Below are positions 10,198 through 64,000 of a DNA stretch of 64,000 nt, in pieces. Position 1 is the stretch's first letter, and each line of letters begins with the position of its first letter. The notes beneath the pieces were generated by a model. That model was not told the DNA's origin and searched no databases. It was given only the letters and a program-made list of their open reading frames with translations. A program made the translations under genes and the position numbers. Source of the stretch: Epinephelus fuscoguttatus (Eukaryota; Chordata; Actinopteri; Perciformes; Serranidae); assembly GCF_011397635.1 (NCBI RefSeq), contig NC_064761.1, positions 42,682,143 to 42,746,142 on the forward strand. The letters run 5' to 3'.

Positions 10198-10589
10198 GAG
10201 CTGCAGTGGAACACATCCAGTGTGTGCTAGGGGCAGCACTTTGTGGCACGGTTGTGTTTTCAGCTTGAATCATAGACATACACAACTCTAAGCTGCATTT
10301 TTTAATTGGTCAAGATGGAGCTAATTTCAACTACTTAAACTGTTTGGTAGTTGTTGTTTTTTATCTCTAGCAAGTTTTGTATGAATATCATATTTCATTA
10401 TGCTTATATTTTGTATGAACAATCTGCACACATAACTTGTAACAATAGCTTTCAAATAAATTTCACAATGTCTGCACAGAGACCATCATCCTAAAAAGAG
10501 TGACGGCATCAATCATCTCTGCAACACAACATTATTTGGAGGACTTGTTGTTTGCACAATATGTATAAAGCAGCTCCAAACAGAAATGC
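10198..10589. other. Intergenic, no gene seen
   Basis: Lies between the THAP element and the older repeat. No frame or repeat recognised. Confidence 0.5.
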
Positions 10590-10861
10590 TGTTCTCATGC
10601 ACTGTGTGCTTGCACGTACGAAAGGTTATGCACTACAATTTGTATGTAACCCACGAAATCATTAGCCAGTAATTCATATACGACCCATGAAACTGGGAAG
10701 GCTTAAGCTGATGAAATACATTGACGGCAGTAAAGAAGGAAGTAGGTAAGGGCGGTGGACGGCTCACAGAGCACAGGACTTTCCACTTCAGTACTTTCCC
10801 CCGGGAGACTGGTGTTTGAAACCGTGTGAAATCAAGTGAAGTGATTTTAATTACGTTTTAA

Positions 10862-11996
10862 AGGGAAATTTCGGTTTATTTCAACCTGTCTCCTATCGTC
10901 CTAAATTTGTGACTAGTGACATAAAAATAATAGTTAGCATGTTAGCCATTAGCCTAGATACAGCTGGGGCGCATAGTAGCGTCAGACCTGTTAAAACGTA
11001 AGTGAACGGGCAACCTTCAAGTGCAAAGTTAGTCCACTAAACAAGCTTTTTTTCCACAAAGACCGCCTCATATCGTTAGGATAAATGTCAGAGAACATAT
11101 AGAAAACCACATGTAAACGTGTTGTCTTACCTTACCGGTGTGCTGCCATGTTTGTTTACCATCTAGCTCTGCTTTCCAAAGCGCAGCTGAAATATTTCTT
11201 GCGAGCTCTAGATAAAGCCCAGCTGGATACTACTCCAGGTGGAGGTGTCTCGTCCTCGGTCACATCCAGACCTTGAAAATAAGGCTGCAACCGGTCCCAT
11301 TCCTTGCAACAGAGGCATTCCTCTTCTGTGGGCACTGGGGCACAGCATTCACAGGTACACCACCAATCTCCAGAGCTACGCAGCCTTGCAGCAGCCATTC
11401 CTCCTCTCTCGTCCTCTACCTGTTGCCTCTCTCTCTCCTCCTCCGTTCTTCAGTTTCACGAAGCTCTTCACAGTGTATTCTGGCTCAAATAAATAAGGGC
11501 GGCCATCAAACTCTGCAAATCAAATTCCTCCTCCACAAAGTCGAAGTCTGGCAAAAAGTCAGCCATTATTCTATAAATCTTTCATAAAATAAATGAATGA
11601 ACTTTTCAGGCTACTGTCCGGTTCTGCCTTCCAGCTGTTGCTGCTTGTTCTCGCGAGATTTCAGGCACGCTTTGGAAAGCAGAACTAAATGGTAAACAAA
11701 CATGGCAGCACACCAGTAAGGTAAGACAACACGTTTACATGTCGTTTTCTATATGTTCTCTGACATTTATCCTAACGATATGAGGCGGTCTTTGTGGTAA
11801 AAAAGCTTGTTTAGTGGACTAACTTTGCACTTGAAGGTTGCCCATTCACTTACGTTTTAACAGGTCTGACGCTACTATGCGCCCTGGCTATATCTAGGCT
11901 AACGGCTAACATGCTAATTATTATTTTTATGTCACTAGTCACTTGAAACAAATTTAGGACGATAGGAGACAGGTTGAAATAAACCGAAATTTCCCT
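10862..11996 (-). mobile_element. TTAA-flanked transposon with ~345-bp inverted ends (Kolobok/piggyBac-like)
   Basis: TTAA occurs at 10858-10861 and 11997-12000, directly outside ends that read AGGGAAATTTCGGTTTATTT inward from both sides. The inverted arms run about 10862-11206 and 11650-11996 and are nearly identical; the left arm lacks about 6 bp next to CTAAATTTGT. A third left arm of the same family begins at 63663, again after TTAA. TTAA target duplication is the rule for Kolobok and piggyBac transposons. The 440-bp core holds a degenerate minus-strand sequence like the P2X7 receptor tail and no transposase, so the element is non-autonomous. Confidence 0.8.
11156..11560 (-). pseudogene. 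P2X7 intracellular-domain-like remnant inside the transposon
   Basis: The minus strand has an 80-codon frame (11398 down to 11156) with WWCTCECC (12-19), PVPTEEE (21-27) and CLCCKEWDRL (28-37). The spacing of clustered Cys with Pro-Thr-Glu resembles the cysteine-rich, zinc-binding intracellular 'ballast' tail of P2X7 receptors, a module that fish genomes also carry in many repeat-linked proteins. Upstream, around 11520-11470, another frame reads DGRPYLFEPEYT, the kind of N-terminal block seen in those proteins. The two pieces are in different frames and a stop lies between them, so the reading frame is broken. The last ~17 codons run into the left inverted arm. No channel domain is present. 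Functional coding is unlikely for this copy. Confidence 0.55.
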
Positions 11997-12145
11997 TTAA
12001 CTATGTTTCTTTTACTAAACCTAACCAATGTAACTTTACTTAAACCTAATCTGTACAACTCCACACTAAGTGACTTTATGTTAAGTATGTAACATCATCC
12101 ACTGGGCGCTAATTTGTTTGATATCATTCAAACAGCTGTGTGAGG

Positions 12146-13633
12146 AAATGCTGCTCAAGTAAGTACCTTACTGTATTTGAGCAGTTAGTTTCCACCACTG
12201 GTCCGAGAAAAGTCCGCCCAGCTTTGGTGTTTGATTTGAAACTGCATGTGTTTGTGTGTATTTGACTGCATGATAGTGAGAGGTGTCGCTGTCATTGCAT
12301 CTACTGCCTGTTTATACTATGCACACTGCATATCGCACTGACACGGCCTTGATTACATTGGATTATGACCTATCTATGCTCTTTATCTTTCCTAAGTGTC
12401 AGAGCATTTACAGAACACGAGTGGAGTAGCGGTAATATTCCCTCGGAGCAGTGGGCATGTCAAATCCCTATTTAGCCCGTTATAATGACAAAGCAGTTGC
12501 TATTCCTGATCTGCATTGGTGGCCAGTTATAGTGTGTGTTCCTGCTGTTAGACAGAACCACTTGTCCCAACTACTGTTTTCAAGTTCATTTTACCAGGAG
12601 ACAAAGAGTCCATTTATCTAGAGGGAGACAGGAAAGAGGAGGGGAGAGACAGTGAAGGGTGGGAGACAGAGAGACAGAGAGATAGAGAGGAAGGGCTGAA
12701 AGCTGGATGGAGAGTGAAGGAAGGAGGAGGAGGAGGAGGAGGAGAAAGAGACGACTGACAGAAGAACTTTCCAAAACAGCAGATCCTGGAATGTTGGTGG
12801 AAGGTGCCACATAGCTCCAAATATTTGTTGCTTGGTTGGCACGGCAACAGGACAGCCAACACGTTTATTAGCTAATCCGCACAATGATACCAGAGAGTCA
12901 GTGAGAGGAAACACAGAGGACTGTGAGATGGGAAAAAAATATATCATTTAGAAAAGAAGTGTGTTGAACAATAAAAGGGGGAAAAAATCAGAGAATGAGA
13001 TTCATTGTTTCATTGTTGACTTTGTGTTATGAAGCAGAGACACGTGCCAACACACACACACACACACACACTCTGACAGCTACAGGTAGACACAGCATGG
13101 AGTGGGGTATCGGAGTCAGCTACTGTCACTCAGCTATGTACTGCTGCTTCCTCCCTTCAGCCTCGCCCAAACTAGTGTCAAACACACACACACACGCACA
13201 CACACACACATAATGTCTGCCATTGGTCTCTGACACCAAAGTGTACAGGACACCATGGCAACCTATCGCAGCGAAAATGAAACAGGACGCAAGTACCGTT
13301 TATTTAACCAGAAGTTATCCTGTGCTGAGTTTCTATGGTTAGTGGCATTCTGCAGGTCACAGGCTCCCATGAAAACTAACACTAAAAATGAGTCTATGGT
13401 GACTAATGTGTGCCAACTCTGATGCAGCTGTGTAGATCACGTTAGTCAAGTAGACATACCTTTATAACTGATGTTTGCGTGTGCTACTGTTGGCTGTCCT
13501 CACCGAGAATGATTATTTAATGAAGGATTAAAACACTGACACCCAATTAAAAACCACCTGAATTTAAAGGCCGTCACAGCTGAAGTGTGCAGTGTGCACA
13601 TTGTTGTCATAATAGTTACCATTACAGTCATGG
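12146..13633. other. Intergenic with purine-rich tract
   Basis: Holds a strongly purine-biased tract at about 12621-12752 with a (GGA)n core, short CA runs at 13047-13071 and 13182-13212, and no supported gene. Confidence 0.55.
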
Positions 13634-13790: not shown

Positions 13791-14709
13791 CTATATAATG
13801 ACGAAAACTCTGTGTGTGTGTGTGTGTGTGTTCCACGTTTTTCTCCTCACTGACTTGGTCAATCCATGTGAAATTTGGCACAGTGGTAGAGGGTCATAGG
13901 AGGATGCCAATGAAGCAATATTACATCAATTGGCCAAAGGGGGGCGCTATAGCAACCCATTGAAATGTCAAACTTTGAATGGGCATATCTCATGCCCCAT
14001 ATGTCGTAGAGACATGAAACTTTGCACAGAGATGCCTCTCCTCATGAGGAACACATTTGCCTCAAGAACCCAGAACTTCCGCTTATATAGATTTTCCGCC
14101 ATTTTGAATTTTTTGAAAAACACTTCAAATGGATGTCTTCCTAGGAAGTTTGAGCGATCTGCATGAAACTGGGTGAACATAATCTAGGGAGCAATATCTA
14201 AAGTTCCCTCTTGGCAAAAGTTGGAAAACTTACTAAAACTGAGCTTCTATAAGGCAATGAATATTGCGGAGGGCGTGGCTCATCACATAAAGGTGTAGAA
14301 CATCTCAAGGGTTTCACCCATCACCACGCAACTTTGTAGGCATATGACCACACATAATCTGAGGGGACCCCTCCATTATTGACCCCATCAAACAAAATGG
14401 GGGCGCTAGAGAGCTCATTTCTTATCTAGGCCTAACCGCCATATGGATTTTTACTAAACTTGGTAGATATGTAGAACAGGACGCCTCAAGGTGACTGGAG
14501 AAATTTAACTCTAATTGGCAACTGGGTGGCGCTATAACAACAGAAAAATGCTTCAAAATGGCTAAAATGTGACCGATCGCTGTGGCTCCCCCTGTGGACC
14601 AATGTTGGTGTTGTTTCTAATGTTTGGTATGACTAAGTCATGGTATGGTATGCTGTACATAATCACGGAAACTGTCAGTGTGTCATTCTGTCAGTCAGTC
14701 AGTCATTAA
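13791..14709 (-). repeat. ~0.9-kb interspersed repeat, family A, copy 1
   Basis: Read on the minus strand it matches 60593-61579 almost throughout and 36304-36801 in part. The left edge CTATATAATGACGAAAAC next to a (TG)n run is the same terminus as ATTATATAG at 61571-61579. It contains several CGCC/GCGCCCCC words and no long frame with protein character. The class is uncertain; a short AT-rich terminus next to a microsatellite would be compatible with a Helitron-like non-autonomous element. Confidence 0.75.
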
Positions 14710-24571: not shown

Positions 24572-26188
24572 CAGTACAGGCCAAAAGTTTGGACACACCT
24601 TCTCATTCAATGCGTTTTCTTTATTTTCATGACTATTTACATTGTAGATTCTCACTGAAGGCATCAAAACTATGAATGAACACATGTGGAGTTATGTACT
24701 TAACAAAAAAAGGTGAAATAACTGAAAACATGTTTTATATTCTAGTTTCTTCAAAATAGCCACCCTTTGCTCTGATTACTGCTTTGCACACTCTTGGCAT
24801 TCTCTCCATGAGCTTCAAGAGGTAGTCACCTGAAATGGTTTTCCAACAGTCTTGAAGGAGTTCCCAGAGGTGTTTAGCACTTGTTGGCCCCTTTGCCTTC
24901 ACTCTGCGGTCCAGCTCACCCCAAACCATCTCCATTGGGTTCAGGTCCGGTGACTGTGGAGGCCAGGTCATCTGCCGCAGCACTCCATCACTCTCCTTCT
25001 TGGTCAAATAGCCCTTACACAGCCTGGAGGTGTGTTTGGGGTCATTGTCCTGTTGAAAAATAAATGATCGTCCAACTAAACGCAAACCGGATGGGATGGC
25101 ATGTCGCTGCAGGATGCTGTGGTAGCCATGCTGGTTCAGTGTGCCTTCAATTTTGAATAAATCCCCAACAGTGTCACCAGCAAAACACCCCACACCATCA
25201 CACCTCCTCCTCCATGCTTCACAGTGGGAACCAGGCATGTGGAATCCATCCGCTCACCTTTTCTGCGTCTCACAAAGACACGCGTTGGAACCAAAGATCT
25301 CAAATTTGGACTCATCAGACCAAAGCACAGATTTCCACCGGTCTAATGTCCATTCCTTGTGTTTCTTGGCCCAAACAAATCTCTTCTGCTTGTTGCCTCT
25401 CCTTAGCAGTGGTTTCCTAGCAGCTATTTGACCATGAAGGCCTGATTCGCAGTCTCCTCTTAACAGTTGTTCTAGAGATGGGTCTGCTGCGAGAACTCTG
25501 GGTGCCATTCATCTGGTCTCTGATCTGAGCTGCTGTTAACTTGCAATATCTGAGGCTGGTGACTGGATGAACTTATCCTCAGAAGCAGAGGTGACTCTTG
25601 GTCTTCCTTTCCTGGGTCGGTCCTCATGTGTGCCAGTTTCGTTAGCGCTTGATGGTTTTTGCGACTCACTTGGGGACACATTTAAAGTTTTTGCAATTTT
25701 CGGACTGACTGACCTTCATTTCTTAAAGTAATGATGGCCACTCGTTTTTCTTTAGTTAGCTGATTGGTTCTTGCCATAATATGAATTTTAACAGTTGTCC
25801 AATAGGGCTGTCGGCTGTGTATTAACCTGACTTCTGCACAACACAACTGATGGTCCCAACCCCATTGATAAAGCAAGAAATTCCGCTAATTAACCCTGAT
25901 AAGGCACACCTGTGAAGTGGAAACCATTTCAGGTGACTACCTCTTGAAGCTCATGGAGAGAATGCCAAGAGTGTGCAAAGCAGTAATCAGAGCAAAGGGT
26001 GGCTATTTTGAAGAAACTAGAATATAAAACATGTTTTCAGTTATTTCACCTTTTTTTGTTAAGTACATAACTCCACATGTGTTCATTCATAGTTTTGATG
26101 CCTTCAGTGAGAATCTACAATGTAAATAGTCATGAAAATAAAGAAAACGCATTGAATGAGAAGGTGTCCAAACTTTTGGCCTGTACTG
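24572..26188 (-). mobile_element. Tc1-like transposon, full length with long inverted ends
   Basis: The element is 1617 bp, flanked by TA at 24570-24571 and 26189-26190, the Tc1/mariner target duplication. Its ends read CAGTACAGGCCAAAAGTTTG inward. The inverted repeats are about 270 bp (24572-24845 and 25917-26188) and almost identical. The core carries a broken minus-strand transposase. Because the left repeat includes the last ~36 transposase codons, the right repeat carries an extra copy of that coding end. Confidence 0.95.
24735..25777 (-). pseudogene. Tc1 transposase, broken by stops and frameshift
   Basis: The gene starts at 25777 with MARTNQLTKEKR and ends at 24735. Tc1 transposases (about 340 aa) cut and paste the element through an N-terminal paired-like helix-turn-helix domain and a DDE catalytic domain. 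The helix-turn-helix start (RVAIITLRNEGQSVRK) is intact but a stop follows at about 25682. A frameshift lies between 25681 and 25508, and another stop near 25253 follows the first catalytic motif, WSDESKFEIFGSN. The second Asp lies in FQQDNDPKHTS and the final acidic residue in DLNPMEMVW, both in the intact 25238-24735 part. All three catalytic motifs survive but not in one frame, so this copy cannot make active enzyme. It could still be moved by a transposase supplied from elsewhere, as both ends are whole. Confidence 0.92.
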
Positions 26189-28894: not shown

Positions 28895-29226
28895 CACAGC
28901 CGGGCAGAGGAGGAAGCGCGCACAGACTGAGTCGGTGCCTGAAGAGAAAAGTTAGAGAGCTTTTCATTCACGGACTCACAAGAACTGTGGATACTTTGGC
29001 AAAGACTTTGTGAACTGTTACAACAACAATCAACCATCGCTGGCTCAAAGAAGTAAGTTCTGATTCCTGTGTCAAGACAGTGCGCACTCAGAGTTTGGAA
29101 GTTTTTACGCACAGAGAGGACGTTTGGAAACCAGTGTTTTTCCCTCATCTGATAAACCAGGAAGAAGAGAGGGGGGGACGAAAAGTAGTTTTGTAAAAGA
29201 CTTTGTAGTATTTTGGTTTCTCTTCC

Positions 29227-30210
29227 ATGTATACCAAGATGGAAACTACTTTCTATGACGACTCACTCAACGCTTTCTCCCAGCAAGACAACGCCGGCTA
29301 CGGATACAGCAACCCCAAAGTGCTGAAACACAACATGACACTGAACCTCAGCGATCCGACGGGCACTCTGAAACCTCACCTCCGCGCCAAAGCCAGCGAC
29401 ATCCTCACCTCTCCTGATGTGGGCTTGCTGAAGCTGGCCTCGCCGGAGCTGGAGCGGCTCATCATCCAGTCCAGCAACGGGCTCATCACCACCACGCCGA
29501 CCCCGACACAGTTCATGTGTCCCAAGAATGTCACCGACGAGCAGGAGGGCTTCGCTGAGGGGTTTGTCCGAGCTCTGGCTGAACTCCACCACCAGCACAT
29601 GCCGGGCACAACTAATGTGAGTGTCACCTCAGCTGCTCAGACCAGTGTCAACACTGCCCTGCCGCCTGTTTCATCTGTTGCCGGTGCCACCGTTTACAAC
29701 AACAACACAGCCATGCGCTCCGACTCGCCGGTGTATGAGGACTTGAACACTTTCAACCCAGCCATCAGCACCGTCTCGGCACCAAGCTACACCACCTCAG
29801 CCCCGACCATGTCCTTCCCCGCAGCCCCGCCGCAGCTTCCCATCTACGGGCAGCCATCCGCCGCCCAGCTCCCCCGGCTCACGGCGCTCAAAGAGGAGCC
29901 CCAAACCGTGCCTGAGATGCCGGGGGAGACGCCTCCTCTCTCCCCAATCGACATGGAGAACCAGGAGCGCATCAAGGCCGAGAGAAAGCGGATGAGGAAC
30001 CGCATCGCTGCCTCCAAGTGCCGGAAGAGGAAGCTGGAGCGGATCTCGAGGCTGGAGGACAAAGTGAAGAACCTCAAGTCCCAAAACTCGGAGCTCGCGT
30101 CCACCGCCAACATGTTGCGCGAGCAGGTGGCCCAGCTGAAGCAGAAGGTGATGAACCACGTCAACAGCGGGTGCCAGCTCATGTTAACGCAGCAGCTCCA
30201 GACCTTCTGA
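29227..30210 (+). CDS. jun: c-Jun transcription factor, AP-1 subunit (327 aa, single exon)
   Basis: c-Jun forms homodimers or pairs with Fos/ATF proteins and binds TRE/CRE sites in the nucleus to drive growth, stress and death responses. The start [12 protein letters not shown] matches the family start. The delta region around residues 30-60 ([17 protein letters not shown]) is the JNK docking area. S62 and S72, each followed by Pro ([14 protein letters not shown]), and T90/T92 (TTTPTPTQ) are the JNK phosphorylation sites. The basic region ([20 protein letters not shown], about 249-268, with the redox-sensitive Cys) is followed by a leucine zipper to about 305. The C-terminus [11 protein letters not shown] is the canonical ending. 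Length is close to human c-Jun (331 aa). The middle linker (about 130-215) is Ser/Thr/Pro-rich and diverges most. The gene has no intron, as in all vertebrates, and is much richer in G+C than its surroundings. Promoter motifs upstream suggest autoregulation through AP-1/ATF2. Confidence 0.97.
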
Positions 30211-34033: not shown

Positions 34034-37000
34034 ATGCTCAATATACTCAAAGGCTTTGACGCTCAGGCCGCAGCATCAGCTTGTATCAACCCCTACGCTG
34101 TGGATGTAATCCGGGCAAAGAGAAGGGATCTAGTGTATGGGATCTCACATACTGAGGATCTACTGGATCTCCTCGTCACAGAGGGGGTCATGACAGCAGC
34201 AAAGAGATCCATCGTCTTGTCCATCAGGACTCGCAAAGATCAAAACTCCAGGGTCCTGGACATCCTGGAGGCCAGAGGTGAAAGGGCATGTCGGATATTC
34301 TTTCATCCGTGTCTTATGCTGGCAGAACCCGACCTCTATCAGCAAATCAAGACCTATGTGGGTGGTGTGAATGAGCGTGTTCGAGACACAAGGAGACAGC
34401 TGATTGGATATTTGCTGGAGAGGGACCAACAGGGGATGGTTGTCACTCACAAGACTAGCACTTTACTTGTCACCAAAGGAACTAAGAAATTTAGCCGTGA
34501 AAGAGAAGACAGAGGCACTGTGGCACTTTTAAAACCAGAGAAGCACAAACCAGAACAAAGTCAATCAGAAAATCTCATCCACATGATTGCAACAGACGGG
34601 GAGCTAGTACTGCTACAGGAGCTGTTAGATGACACTGATATTAACACTGTCAATTCAGCCAACGAGACTCTATTACACGTAGCTGCTGAAAATGGTCACC
34701 TGCCCATCATTGAGCTCTTGATCCATAAAGGAGCCAGACTGGACCTGCAGGATAATGAAGGTCACACAGCTCTTCACAGAGCAGCCAGAAGGGATCACAC
34801 TGAGATAGTCGCTGCCCTCATACAAGCTGGGGCCCCTATCTACGCTCAGGATGTAGACGGCAAAACCCCCGTTCACCTGGCAGCGGAAAATGAACACCTG
34901 AAATCTGTCAAAGTCCTGGTGAAGGAGGAGGCCAAGCAGTCTGTGAGCCACACACAGGACATGTTTCTTCACACAGCAGCCGTGGAGGATAACTGGAGGC
35001 TGGCTGAGCTGCTGCTGCAGAGCGGGGCCGCTGTCAATGCCAGAAACAGCCATAAAAAAGCAGCTCTGTTTTATGCAGTTTCCAGGAACAATGAGAAAAC
35101 AGTGACTGTCCTTCTAGACGCAGGGGCTGAAGCTGACTATGATGTTATAAATGAAGCCATTAAGCTCAACCAAGAATCAGTTCTCCGTCTGTTGCTTGGT
35201 GAGTCTCTTCACAGAAGACTATGATACTTATAATATTATTTCACAGCTTAAAGTATGCTACGTCACCATGCAGCAGACTGCTTTTTTTTTTAGATATGAA
35301 TAGCACATAAATAAAGCACAAAGCTGCAAACATACGCTCACACTGTGTCTTGTTTGGATCATAGATAACCCCAGAGGAGCTCCGAGTGAAGACACACTGG
35401 GCTCTGCTCTCTTCTCAGCTGTTAAACAGAACCGTGATGGAGTGGTGACCACTCTCATAGACAGTGGAGCAAATGTGAATATGTTGGACAAACAAGGCTA
35501 CACTCCTCTCCTGTTGTCAGCTGAGCTGGGGCACACTGAAGTCTTAAGGTACCTGTCCAACAAGGACTCAGTGTTGTTAAGACACTTACCAGCAGGGGGT
35601 GCCAGTTTGAGTGATTGTTGATGTTTACACAAAGTGGCTTTAAATTGTGTTTTTGTTGTATATTTTTTCTGATTTTTGCTCACAGGAAGTGACACACCAT
35701 GACATGAACAATAACAGAACATAGAAATATATCTAAGTAATATCCGTCACACACAACACATACTATATGACACAAATATGGGGGTATAATCTATATCTAT
35801 ATAGTCTATGTCCACTGCTGCAGCTCTTTCTCTTTACTGGTTATGTCTTTACATGGATCCAATATGACTTTGTTGGTGAGCATAAGCTGCCAGCTTAATT
35901 GCTAATAAGTCCATATTTACTCTGAGTCAGTTTTTCAGTTCATTGGCTATTTGCATATCTTAAAGGGAAACACTGCAGAATTTCAATATGTTGTTTCCAT
36001 GGTCTAGGAAAGTTCAACCAATATTTACATGAGCTTCTCTCTCTTAAAGCCAGAAACCAAGTTGAGCTGCCATCAAATATAAAGTCTGGAGTTGCTGCAC
36101 AGATAATGAATGGGAGCCTGATTTTCAATTCAATTCAGTTTTATTTATAAAGCCCAATATCACAAATCACAATTTGCCTCAGAGGGCTTTACAGCATACA
36201 ACATCTCTCTGTCCTTGGACCCTCACAGTGGAAGTGGAAAATGGTAGAAACCTCAGGAAGAGCAACTGAGGAGGGACCCCTCCTTCAGGGCAGACAGATG
36301 TCACCTTTGTCCCCTTCTACCTATGCCAGTCCTCAATGCCTATGTGCAGTTTCACATAGATTGACCACGTCAGTGAGTAGAAAAACGTGGGACAGACAGA
36401 ATGACTGACTGACAGAATGACACACTGACAGTTTCCGTGATTATGTACAGCATACCATACCATGACTTAGTCATACCAAACATTAGAAACAACACCAACA
36501 TTGGTCCACAGGGGGAGCCACAGCGATCGGTCGCATTTTAGCCATTTTGAAGCATTTTTCTGTTGTTATAGCGCCACCCAGTTGCCAATTAGAGTTAAAT
36601 TTCTCCAGTCACCTTGAGGCGTCCTGTTCTACATATCTACCAAGTTTAGTAAAAATCCAATCAAAAAATTCAAAATAGTGGAAAATCTATATACCTTTGG
36701 CCAATTGATGTAATATTGCTTCATTGGCATCCTCCCATGACCCTCTACCACTGTGCCAAATTTCACATGGATTGACCAAGTCAGTGAGGAGAAGAACGTG
36801 GAGGCTGAGTTAGTGACATGCAGTAAAAGGAATGGAAAAGAACCAAAACCTAGAATCCAAGATGAGAGACAGAGAAGGGGCTCAGTTTATCATAGGAGGT
36901 CCCTTTTCCTACACCCAAATGAGCTTTTTCTATAGTAGTGTTCTCAGTTCTATATACTGAGAACATTCCCTGGGTGTCATCTATAACTTTGTTCCCCAGT

Positions 37001-57854: not shown

Positions 57855-59374
57855 GCACACTGAATTAGAGCTCCCAGTAAGTTTTTAATGACTAAAAAAG
57901 CAACGTTTCGACCCAAACGGTCTTCCTCAGGCAACTTCAAAAGAATGAATGAAAAGGCAGGTGGCAGGTATACATATAGGCTAAGAGCCAGGTGTCATCC
58001 CACCCACGTCATCTGTCAATCAAACAAACAAACAGTCGTTCAAGTGAGCCATATATAGGCATATGATGGCTACTTAGTATGCACAAAGGATTTGCATATC
58101 AATAAGTGCAAAGAATACAGATATACAAAATAAACAAATTGTTATTGGGGAAACACAGTACAAAAGAGACAACTTTACTATTAGACAAGAAACTTTTTAG
58201 AATATTTTAGTAAATATTTTAAGGTATTTTATAATTTTGTAGATACAAACAAAACAAACAAACATGGGATTGCAGTTTTAAAAAGAGTACAGTTTTAAAC
58301 AGGAACACTGCTTGGAGAATAACGACACCAAATACCAGTTCACAAAAAGGGCCTAATGTCAAAATCCTCATTAAGGCCATTAGGTGACATGGTATTGAGA
58401 AAGAAGATCCAGTAGGTCTCCCTTTGAAGGAGTCTTCTTTCAATATCACCACTCCTACGTTGTTTTATAACCCTCTCCACTCCAGACAGTTTTCACCCTC
58501 AACCACTTATCAAAAGCCTGCCTATCAGTCAGTTTCACAGAATTCGCAGAGTATGCAGTGATGACAGCACACATGCAGCACAGGCTTCAGACCTTTCCAA
58601 CAGGCTCCTTAATAGAGGTTAGAGACAGGAGTGGGTCGCTGCAGCCAGGGGGCGCTATGACCAGATGACACAAGAAGAGTGCCTCCAACCTAGAAAAAAG
58701 GCAGACCCTAAACTCAAGCATGTGTTCACTGAACCACCCAAACTAGTGTGACATCAGCCCCCAAAACACACCAAAACCTCTCAGTCTACCAGATGGTAAC
58801 TACAAATGTGGGGGCTGCTCCCAATGCGTCTACACGCAGAGGTGCAAGACTTTTACCCATCCACACACAGGTCGCAACATTTCTATTCGTGGGACCATCA
58901 CATGCAGTACCACACATGTGATTTACATGATCCGGTGCCCATGCGGCCTTGCGTATATTGGGAAAACATCCAGGGAATTACGTACCAGAATCAGTGAACA
59001 CAGGAGCAAGATCAGATTAGGCGACGAGCACAGCCCTGTTGCGGCCCATTTTAAAAAAGCAGGCCACAACGTCAGTGCTCTGCGCTATCTAGGAGTGGAG
59101 AGGGTTATAAAACAACGTAGGGGTGGTGATATTGAAAGAAGACTCCTTCAAAGGGAGACCTACTGGATCTTCTTTCTCAATACCATGTCACCTAATGGCC
59201 TTAATGAGGATTTTGACATTAGGCCCTTTCTGTGAACTGGTATTTGGTGTCGTTATTCTCCAAGCAGTGTTCCTGTTTAAAACTGTACTCTTTTTAAAAC
59301 TACAATCCCATGTTTGTTTGTTTTGTTTGTATCTACAAAATTATAAAATACCTTAAAATATTTACTAAAATATT
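57855..59374 (+). mobile_element. Penelope-like retroelement, truncated with inverted second piece
   Basis: Plus-strand part 58484-59374 carries the retroelement's 3' coding end (GIY-YIG domain) and untranslated tail. Minus-strand part 58483 down to 57855 is a second piece of the same tail, including AACGTTTCGACCCAAACGG near 57901, a word typical of Penelope-like tails in fish. Arms 58201-58483 and 59092-59374 are inverted repeats of 283 bp with one mismatch seen. Such inverted partial copies are common in Penelope-like insertions. The reverse-transcriptase core is missing. Confidence 0.8.
58747..59235 (+). pseudogene. Penelope-like element C-terminus with GIY-YIG endonuclease domain
   Basis: An open frame of 162 codons runs from just after a stop at 58744-58746 to 59235. 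It has a Cys-rich knuckle, KCGGCSQC (about residues 18-25) with Cys and His further on (QRCKTFTHPHTG), then the GIY-YIG-type domain: VIYMIRCPCGLAYIGKTSRELRTR, with Y...AYIGKT as the nuclease signature and R.SEHRS as the next motif, ending GLNEDFDIRPFL. Penelope-like elements are the retroelements that join a telomerase-like reverse transcriptase to this endonuclease. The domain looks intact, including Tyr, Arg and a terminal Glu region, but the upstream part is lost and no start codon is obvious, so it is a relic unless translated as a fragment. Confidence 0.85.
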
Positions 59375-60592: not shown

Positions 60593-61579
60593 CTACCTAT
60601 GCCAGTCCTCAATGCCTATGTGCAGTTTCACATAGATTGACCACGTCAGTGAGTAGAAAAACGTGGGACAGACAGAATGACTGACTGACAGAATGACACA
60701 CTGACAGTTTCCGTGATTATGTACAGCATACCATACCATGACTTAGTCATACCAAACATTAGAAACAACACCAACATTGGTCCACAGGGGGAGCCACAGC
60801 GATCGGTCGCATTTTAGCCATTTTGAAGCATTTTTCTGTTGTTATAGCGCCACCCAGTTGCCAATTAGAGTTACATTTCTCCAGTCACCTTGAGGCGTCC
60901 TGTTCTACATATCTACCAAGTTTAGTAAAAATCCATATGGCGGTTAGGCCTAGATAAGAAATGAGCTCTCTAGCGCCCCCATTTTGTTTGATGGGCTCAA
61001 TAATGGAGGGGTCCCCTCAGATTATGTGTGCTCATATGCCTACAAAGTTGCGTGGTGATGGGTGAAACCCTTGAGATGTTCTACACCTTTATGTGATGAG
61101 CCACGCCCTCCGCAATATTCATTGCCTTATAGAAGCTCAGTTTTAGGAAGTTTTCCAACTTTTGCCAAGAGGAACTTTAGATATTGCTCCCTAGATTATG
61201 TTCACCCAGTTTCATGCAGATCGCTCAAACTTCCTAGGAAGAGATCCATTTGAAGTGTTTTTCAAAAAATTCAAAATGGTGGAAAATCTATATAAGCGGA
61301 AGTTATGGGTTCTTGAGGCAAATGTGTTCCTCATGAGGAGAGGCATCTCTGTGCAAAGTTTCATGTCTCTATGACATACGGGGCATGAGATATGCCCATT
61401 CAAAGTTTGACATTTCAATGGGTTGCTATAGCGCCCCCCTTTGGCCAATTGATGTAATATTGCTTCATTGGCATCCTCCCATGACCCTCTACCACTGTGC
61501 CAAATTTCACATGGATTGACCAAGTCAGTGAGGAGAAAAACGTGGAACACACACACACAGAGTTTTCGTCATTATATAG
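60593..61579 (+). repeat. Repeat family A, copy 3, most complete
   Basis: About 0.99 kb, ending ACGAAAAC-type terminus (61562-61579 inverted) beside a short CA run. It is in the opposite orientation to copy 1 at 13791-14709, with which it agrees closely, and it extends about 70 bp further at the far end. No protein-coding frame. Confidence 0.8.
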
Positions 61580-63617: not shown

Positions 63618-63662
63618 AAGCACATGAAGAAACCCAATTCTCATGTGCAGCTTCTGCCTTAA

Positions 63663-64000
63663 AGGGAAATTTCGGTTTATTTCAACCTGTCTCCTATCGT
63701 CCTAAATTTGTTTCAAGTGACTAGTGACATAAAAATAATAGTTAGCATGTTAGCCGTTAGCCTAGATACAGCCGGGGCGCATAGTAGCGTCAGACCTGTT
63801 AAAACGTAAGTGAACGGGCAACCTTCAAGTGCAAAGTTAGTCCACTAAACAAGCTTTTTCTCCACAAAGACTGCCTCATATAGTTAGGATAAATGTCAGA
63901 GAACATACAGAAAACGACATGTAAACGTGTTGTCTTACCTTACCGGTGTGCTGCCATGTTTGTTTACCATTTAGCTCTGCTTTCCAAAGCACGGCCGAAA
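63663..64000 (+). mobile_element. TTAA element, second copy, cut by the window end
   Basis: TTAA at 63659-63662 is followed by AGGGAAATTTCGGTTTATTT and about 338 bp that match the left arm at 10862-11206, without its 6-bp deletion. The core and right arm lie beyond the window. Confidence 0.85.

Follow-up and report, generated by a model that had tools for sequence, protein, structure and literature searches.

Structure and copies of the element

The window, the 64,000-nucleotide stretch of Epinephelus fuscoguttatus DNA analyzed here, has a 1,135-bp element at 10862-11996 with AGGGAAATTTCGG ends and inverted arms of about 335 bp. Exact TTAA target-site duplications flank it on the left (10858..10861) and on the right (11997..12000), which confirms the preliminary description of a TTAA element with long inverted arms at 10858..12000. 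Sequence and arm pairing place the left arm, which starts with AGGGAAATTTCGG, at 10862..11193 and the right arm, which terminates in CCGAAATTTCCCT, at 11658..11996. The arms are 95% complementary and pair in two ungapped blocks (10858-10920 with 11938-12000 and 10909-11193 with 11658-11942). The length of 1,135 bp leaves no space for a transposase, and the window element is without one. A second copy of the same element at 63659..64000 is truncated by the window end; its complete copy is L043.

The search space was the genome of the window (1.047 Gb, 26 contigs). A DNA search with the window element gave 1,845 first-look candidates, of which the best 40 were scored and all 40 taken; both ends are present in 37 of these and one end is absent in 3. 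The 4-base TTAA flanks are identical in 30 of the 37 full-length copies and altered on one side in the remaining 7. The termini read AGGGA...TCCCT in most of the 37 copies and are mutated in a few, and the majority sequences of the left and right arms have 1 difference in 330 positions. Exact matches to a 40-base end, composed of TTAA and 36 bases, number 789 genome-wide, compared to 0 for a reversed control; therefore, the copy number of the family is several hundred at the minimum. The majority frame described below was also used as a protein query, with the best 150 of 5,564 candidates scored; this led to 30 further loci, and 22 of these have both ends, 890-1,206 bp apart. Since the 37 copies differ from the majority sequence by only 0.8-3.0% (median 1.8%), the family looks fairly young in this sample, which is biased towards the copies most similar to that of the window.

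One subfamily seems to be enriched near chromosome ends. Within 15% of a contig end lie 37 of the 40 copies most similar to the window copy (30% expected), 29 of 65 separate 40-mer end sites on contigs C1 and C2, and 77 of the 132 ORF matches that, among the best 150, are on contigs of known length. The family is not named in the titles and abstracts returned by the literature searches, and it may be catalogued in Repbase or Dfam.

The KolX-like coding remnant

The majority of the 37 copies reads a 138-codon frame on the minus strand (MADFLPDF...RPYLFEPEYTDEEL...WWCTCECCAPVPTEEECLCCKEWDR...). The frame starts about 90 bp inside the right arm and is directed inward; its last 21 or so codons extend into the arm, and 117 codons are counted outside of it. 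In the window copy the corresponding stretch (11156..11566, minus strand) is broken. The sequence WCTCECCAPVPTEEECLCCKE (11300..11362, minus strand), which covers positions one to five of the core cysteines in the KolX/P2X7 zinc module, is within the minus-strand frame 11156-11449, and the YLFEPEYT block (11472..11495, minus strand) is in a different frame, 11376-11519. This separation is due to small deletions that interrupt the majority frame. The pattern WCTCECC...PTEEECLCCKE and the upstream YLFEPEYT noted previously are thus both real, on the minus strand and in a broken frame. They are also not peculiar to the window copy, since 33 of the 37 full-length copies have the strict cysteine motif, with the W-C-x-C-x2-C-x3-P-T...C-C core of KolX, and strict PYLFEPEYT is likewise found in 33 of 37.

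Kol0 Kolobok elements encode KolX as their second protein. According to the relevant parts of Kojima and Bao 2022 (PMC9587614), KolX has the P2X7 ballast fold, P2X7 originated when a P2X4-like gene fused with KolX, and nanor is likely a domesticated KolX. Judged from sequence, the majority frame probably represents the front of KolX through the five core cysteines. The complete set of seven conserved cysteines and the C-terminal half of KolX are absent from the majority frame. The remnant is therefore a truncated KolX and not a whole one, because the majority frame enters the arm once the fifth core position is passed.

Two-gene relatives

One related family is represented by five loci (L101-L105), which are approximately 92-99% alike and all carry KolX exons together with a transposase on the opposite strand. 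A TTAA-AGG end is visible in L101, L104 and L105. The transposase contains an HPQIQKF...YYDVWHMEKG-like stretch, by which we take it to be of the Kolobok type; in Pfam it matches only a Mutator model, below threshold (E=0.049). A 72-residue piece of this transposase finds 51 fragments in the genome (two from one place). A KolX exon is within 6 kb of 41 of the 51 fragments and all 41 pairs are convergent, while 0.07 pairs are expected by chance; the KolX list used for this count has 123 exon matches and 5 picked from a separate search. Therefore, KolX and the transposase travel together in most of the fragments found. In the raw sequence of one genome, transposons thus encode a P2X7-tail-type module in close association with a transposase, in agreement with the origin of the P2X7 tail published in PMC9587614.

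Many further KolX-like genes are found at loci L010-L038, several with RG-rich leaders and CCGQ or CCRQ cores. Some of these adjoin transposase-like frames by eye, and several distinct lineages are present in the genome.

Classification of the element

From its target (TTAA) and its AGGRR ends, the window element is predicted to be a non-autonomous (MITE-like) Kolobok-type DNA transposon. The AGGG...CCCT ends fit the rule of 5'-RR...YY-3' for Kolobok termini, as given in the pertinent section of PMC9587614. The same paper associates KolX of Kol0 Kolobok elements (Kolobok-1_XT type) with a P2X7-ballast cysteine module, a TTAA target and 5'-RR ends, all of which the window element shares. Whereas Kol0 elements encode KolX beside a Kolobok transposase, the window element has long arms, is without a transposase and retains KolX only from its 5' end to the CC pair. 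The Xenopus T2-MITEs, presumed to be non-autonomous Kolobok elements in the part of PMC6004289 that treats them, are like the window family in their TTAA target, AGGRR terminal motif, lack of autonomy and abundance. In addition, the window family retains a recognizable KolX coding piece.

The preliminary description had left the type as Kolobok or piggyBac, and the ends support the former and not the latter. A piggyBac-type MITE with a KolX-like protein of the kind reported from a few piggyBac families is very unlikely. The TTAA target is common to both superfamilies, and proteins like the KolX C-terminus are indeed reported from a few piggyBac families (Kojima and Bao, in the part of PMC9587614 concerned). 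However, these reported proteins match the C-terminal part of KolX and are without most of the conserved cysteines, as that part of PMC9587614 has it, whereas the window remnant is N-terminal and cysteine-bearing. The RR/YY ends, as in Kolobok and in the AGGRR rule of the Xenopus T2-MITEs, also argue against piggyBac, for which other termini are expected, and the assignment was rejected on the termini.

Similarity to KolX and to the host P2X7

A Pfam match to the P2X7 intracellular domain, by which the preliminary description could be checked, stays under the cut-off of the model. The model P2RX7_C (PF20478) results in a score of 17.2 bits (E=0.0049) with the majority frame, under the cut-off of 23.5, and of 14.6 bits (E=0.031), under the gathering score, with the window frame. 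It is the sole match to the majority frame up to E=1 among 24,736 Pfam models; no P2X channel domain and no other domain was found in the frames given to Pfam. NCBIfam has no match to the frame, PDB by sequence gives a single weak match (WASF1, E=0.13), and Rfam at gathering scores has no match in window positions 10500-12400.

A comparison profile was built from 12 sequences of the window's genome (11 KolX and the host P2X7, L009). The profile matches the frame with E=1.4e-5 and a probability of 79.8 over 27 aligned residues, and 0 of 200 shuffles reach the score. The homology of the remnant to KolX appears to depend mainly on these 27 residues. The 19-residue core of the frame scores 63.2 (BLOSUM) against 16 KolX cores, which themselves score 63.3-92.6, so the frame sits beside their minimum; the best of 100,000 shuffles scores 41.9 and none reaches 63.2. 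When the family frame was shuffled 200,000 times, the cysteine pattern did not arise once. Since neither set of shuffles reproduces the motif or its core score, the cysteine motif is not due to chance. An hmmsearch with a 19-column profile is uninformative (3.2 bits, equalled by 249 of 20,000 shuffles). The pattern P(Y/F)xFEPE arises in 28 of 200,000 shuffles.

An alternative source of the cysteine motif would be the host P2X7 gene, part of which the transposon would have taken up as cargo, in the style of a pack-MITE. The P2X7 ballast domain has, like the remnant, a Cys-x-Cys-x2-Cys...Cys-Cys core, and the spacing over 19 residues is identical to that in the P2X7 tail exon of this genome (L009). 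The host core scores 59 against the frame (BLOSUM62, 9 identities), which is inside the range of the KolX cores (45-75, 7-11 identities). Since the host P2X7 is as near as many KolX over these 19 residues, the core alone cannot separate KolX from P2X7. The KolX reading rests instead on the P-T pair, the PYxFEPE block and the position beside the transposon end. The frame has P-T at a position where 14 of 16 KolX cores have PT and 2 have PS, and the pair is missing in the host P2X7 core. The first KolX exon has the PYxFEPE block in L101, L102, L104 and L105 (in L103 this stretch is outside the locus), where PY(M/T)FEPE is the counterpart of YLFEPEYT in the window; no counterpart was found in the three forward frames of the 3.45-kb host P2X7 locus L009. 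The position and direction of the frame, with its start near the transposon end and an inward course, are also those of KolX in L101, L104 and L105. The remnant further differs from the P2X7 ballast domain in having neither the P2X channel part nor the later cysteines, in sharing its P-T pair with KolX and in its sub-threshold Pfam score. Capture of host P2X7 was therefore rejected on the P-T pair, the N-terminal block and the place of the frame, and not on the cysteine spacing, which is identical; we consider it highly improbable.

The preliminary description had also proposed that the P2X7 tail travels as transposon cargo or as part of a transposon protein. The second part stands, since the domain belongs to the transposon protein KolX. 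The first part most likely does not hold for P2X7 as cargo that a transposon acquired, because the published direction, in the part of PMC9587614 that deals with it, is the reverse, with the P2X7 tail derived from KolX. The idea was right in kind and had already been in print since 2022 (PMC9587614, same part). The string "transpos" has no match in the main text of Rump et al. 2020 (PMC7016195). The window element is a good but ordinary example of the known link between KolX and P2X7, and what is new here is one more high-copy family of an already known type. A "P2X7-like" match in such genomes can be transposon debris and calls for caution.

Variation in the frame

It is extremely unlikely that selection maintains the truncated KolX frame, whether for regulation of the transposase or for a role as a host gene. 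The frame is intact over its 117 non-arm codons in 15 of the 37 copies, and the ORF region is less variable than the arms (1.15% of cells vs 2.1%), which would be in line with such a role. However, the frames of the other 22 copies are broken, 21 of them by a net length change that is not divisible by three. The variant sites in the frame across the 37 copies are 78 non-synonymous, 23 synonymous and 2 nonsense. The resulting N/S is 3.39, and the mutation spectrum outside the frame predicts 2.76; synonymous changes are not in excess, and selection on the KolX frame was rejected on this ratio. There is no deficit of amino-acid changes and the frame is under neutral drift, not purifying selection. 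The lower variation of the ORF region is not explicable by selection at the protein level. The KolX remnant is most likely a passenger.

Proposed origin

The window family is very probably a non-autonomous Kolobok MITE that arose from the KolX end of a two-gene element, is mobilized in trans and carries the KolX remnant as a passenger. The KolX-side end of a Kol0-type element would have been kept (the end itself, the leader and the 5' coding part of KolX), while the remainder of the parent, including the transposase, would have been lost. The same end of about 335 bp would have been set in inverted orientation on the opposite side, so that the arms would be duplicates from the birth of the element. 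Going by the ends and target sites, a Kolobok transposase supplied in trans would act on the AGGG...CCCT termini and insert the element into TTAA. The P2X7-like appearance of the KolX remnant would be a result of homology, because the P2X7 tail itself is thought to descend from KolX. A further idea, that high-copy MITEs scatter an open N-terminal half-module of KolX, and that truncated KolX may interfere with or titrate the KolX/transposase system or supply exons for P2X7-like fusions, has very little likelihood.

KolX-paired transposases exist in the genome, and none was seen with the exact ends of the window family; a two-gene element with these ends was not found in the following searches. 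In the first 100 of the 789 listed ends, 15 pairs were recognized, with spans of 720-1,235 bp and none beyond; the 22 further loci with both ends have spans of 890-1,206 bp, as given above. Of the best 150 ORF matches, none has the placement next to a transposase fragment that a KolX exon would have; a single match is within 20 kb of such a fragment, at a distance of 8 kb, and its order does not fit a KolX exon. Among 41 non-MITE loci just one weak end-like tip was found (L038), with several mismatches. The candidate exon L111 was examined as a possible parent, and the parent was not found there.

A shorter KolX last exon is found at approximately 12 places (query 2-31 or 3-31, open frame 77-79 aa). 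Two of these places, C11:1115392 and C11:1151397, are 3.5 kb from transposase fragments. This group is a further multi-copy KolX family and possibly the parent of the window family.

Other features of the window

The window also has another repeat of up to about 886 bp at 13819-14704, 60675-61559 and 36399-36802. Its inverted copies are 98-99% alike, and it is possibly a recently active element. The frame at 58201-59374 contains YIGKTSRELRTRISEHRS, presumably a GIY-YIG-like stretch as in Penelope-like elements, and overlies 283-bp inverted arms that are 99% complementary. An intronless frame at 29209-30210 is presumably Jun-like; together with the host P2X7 exon (L009), it indicates a vertebrate genome. 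At 24595-26167, a frame (24735-25253) that we take to be a Tc1/mariner-like transposase overlaps 247-bp inverted arms; since these arms are 100% complementary, the Tc1/mariner-like element is possibly young.
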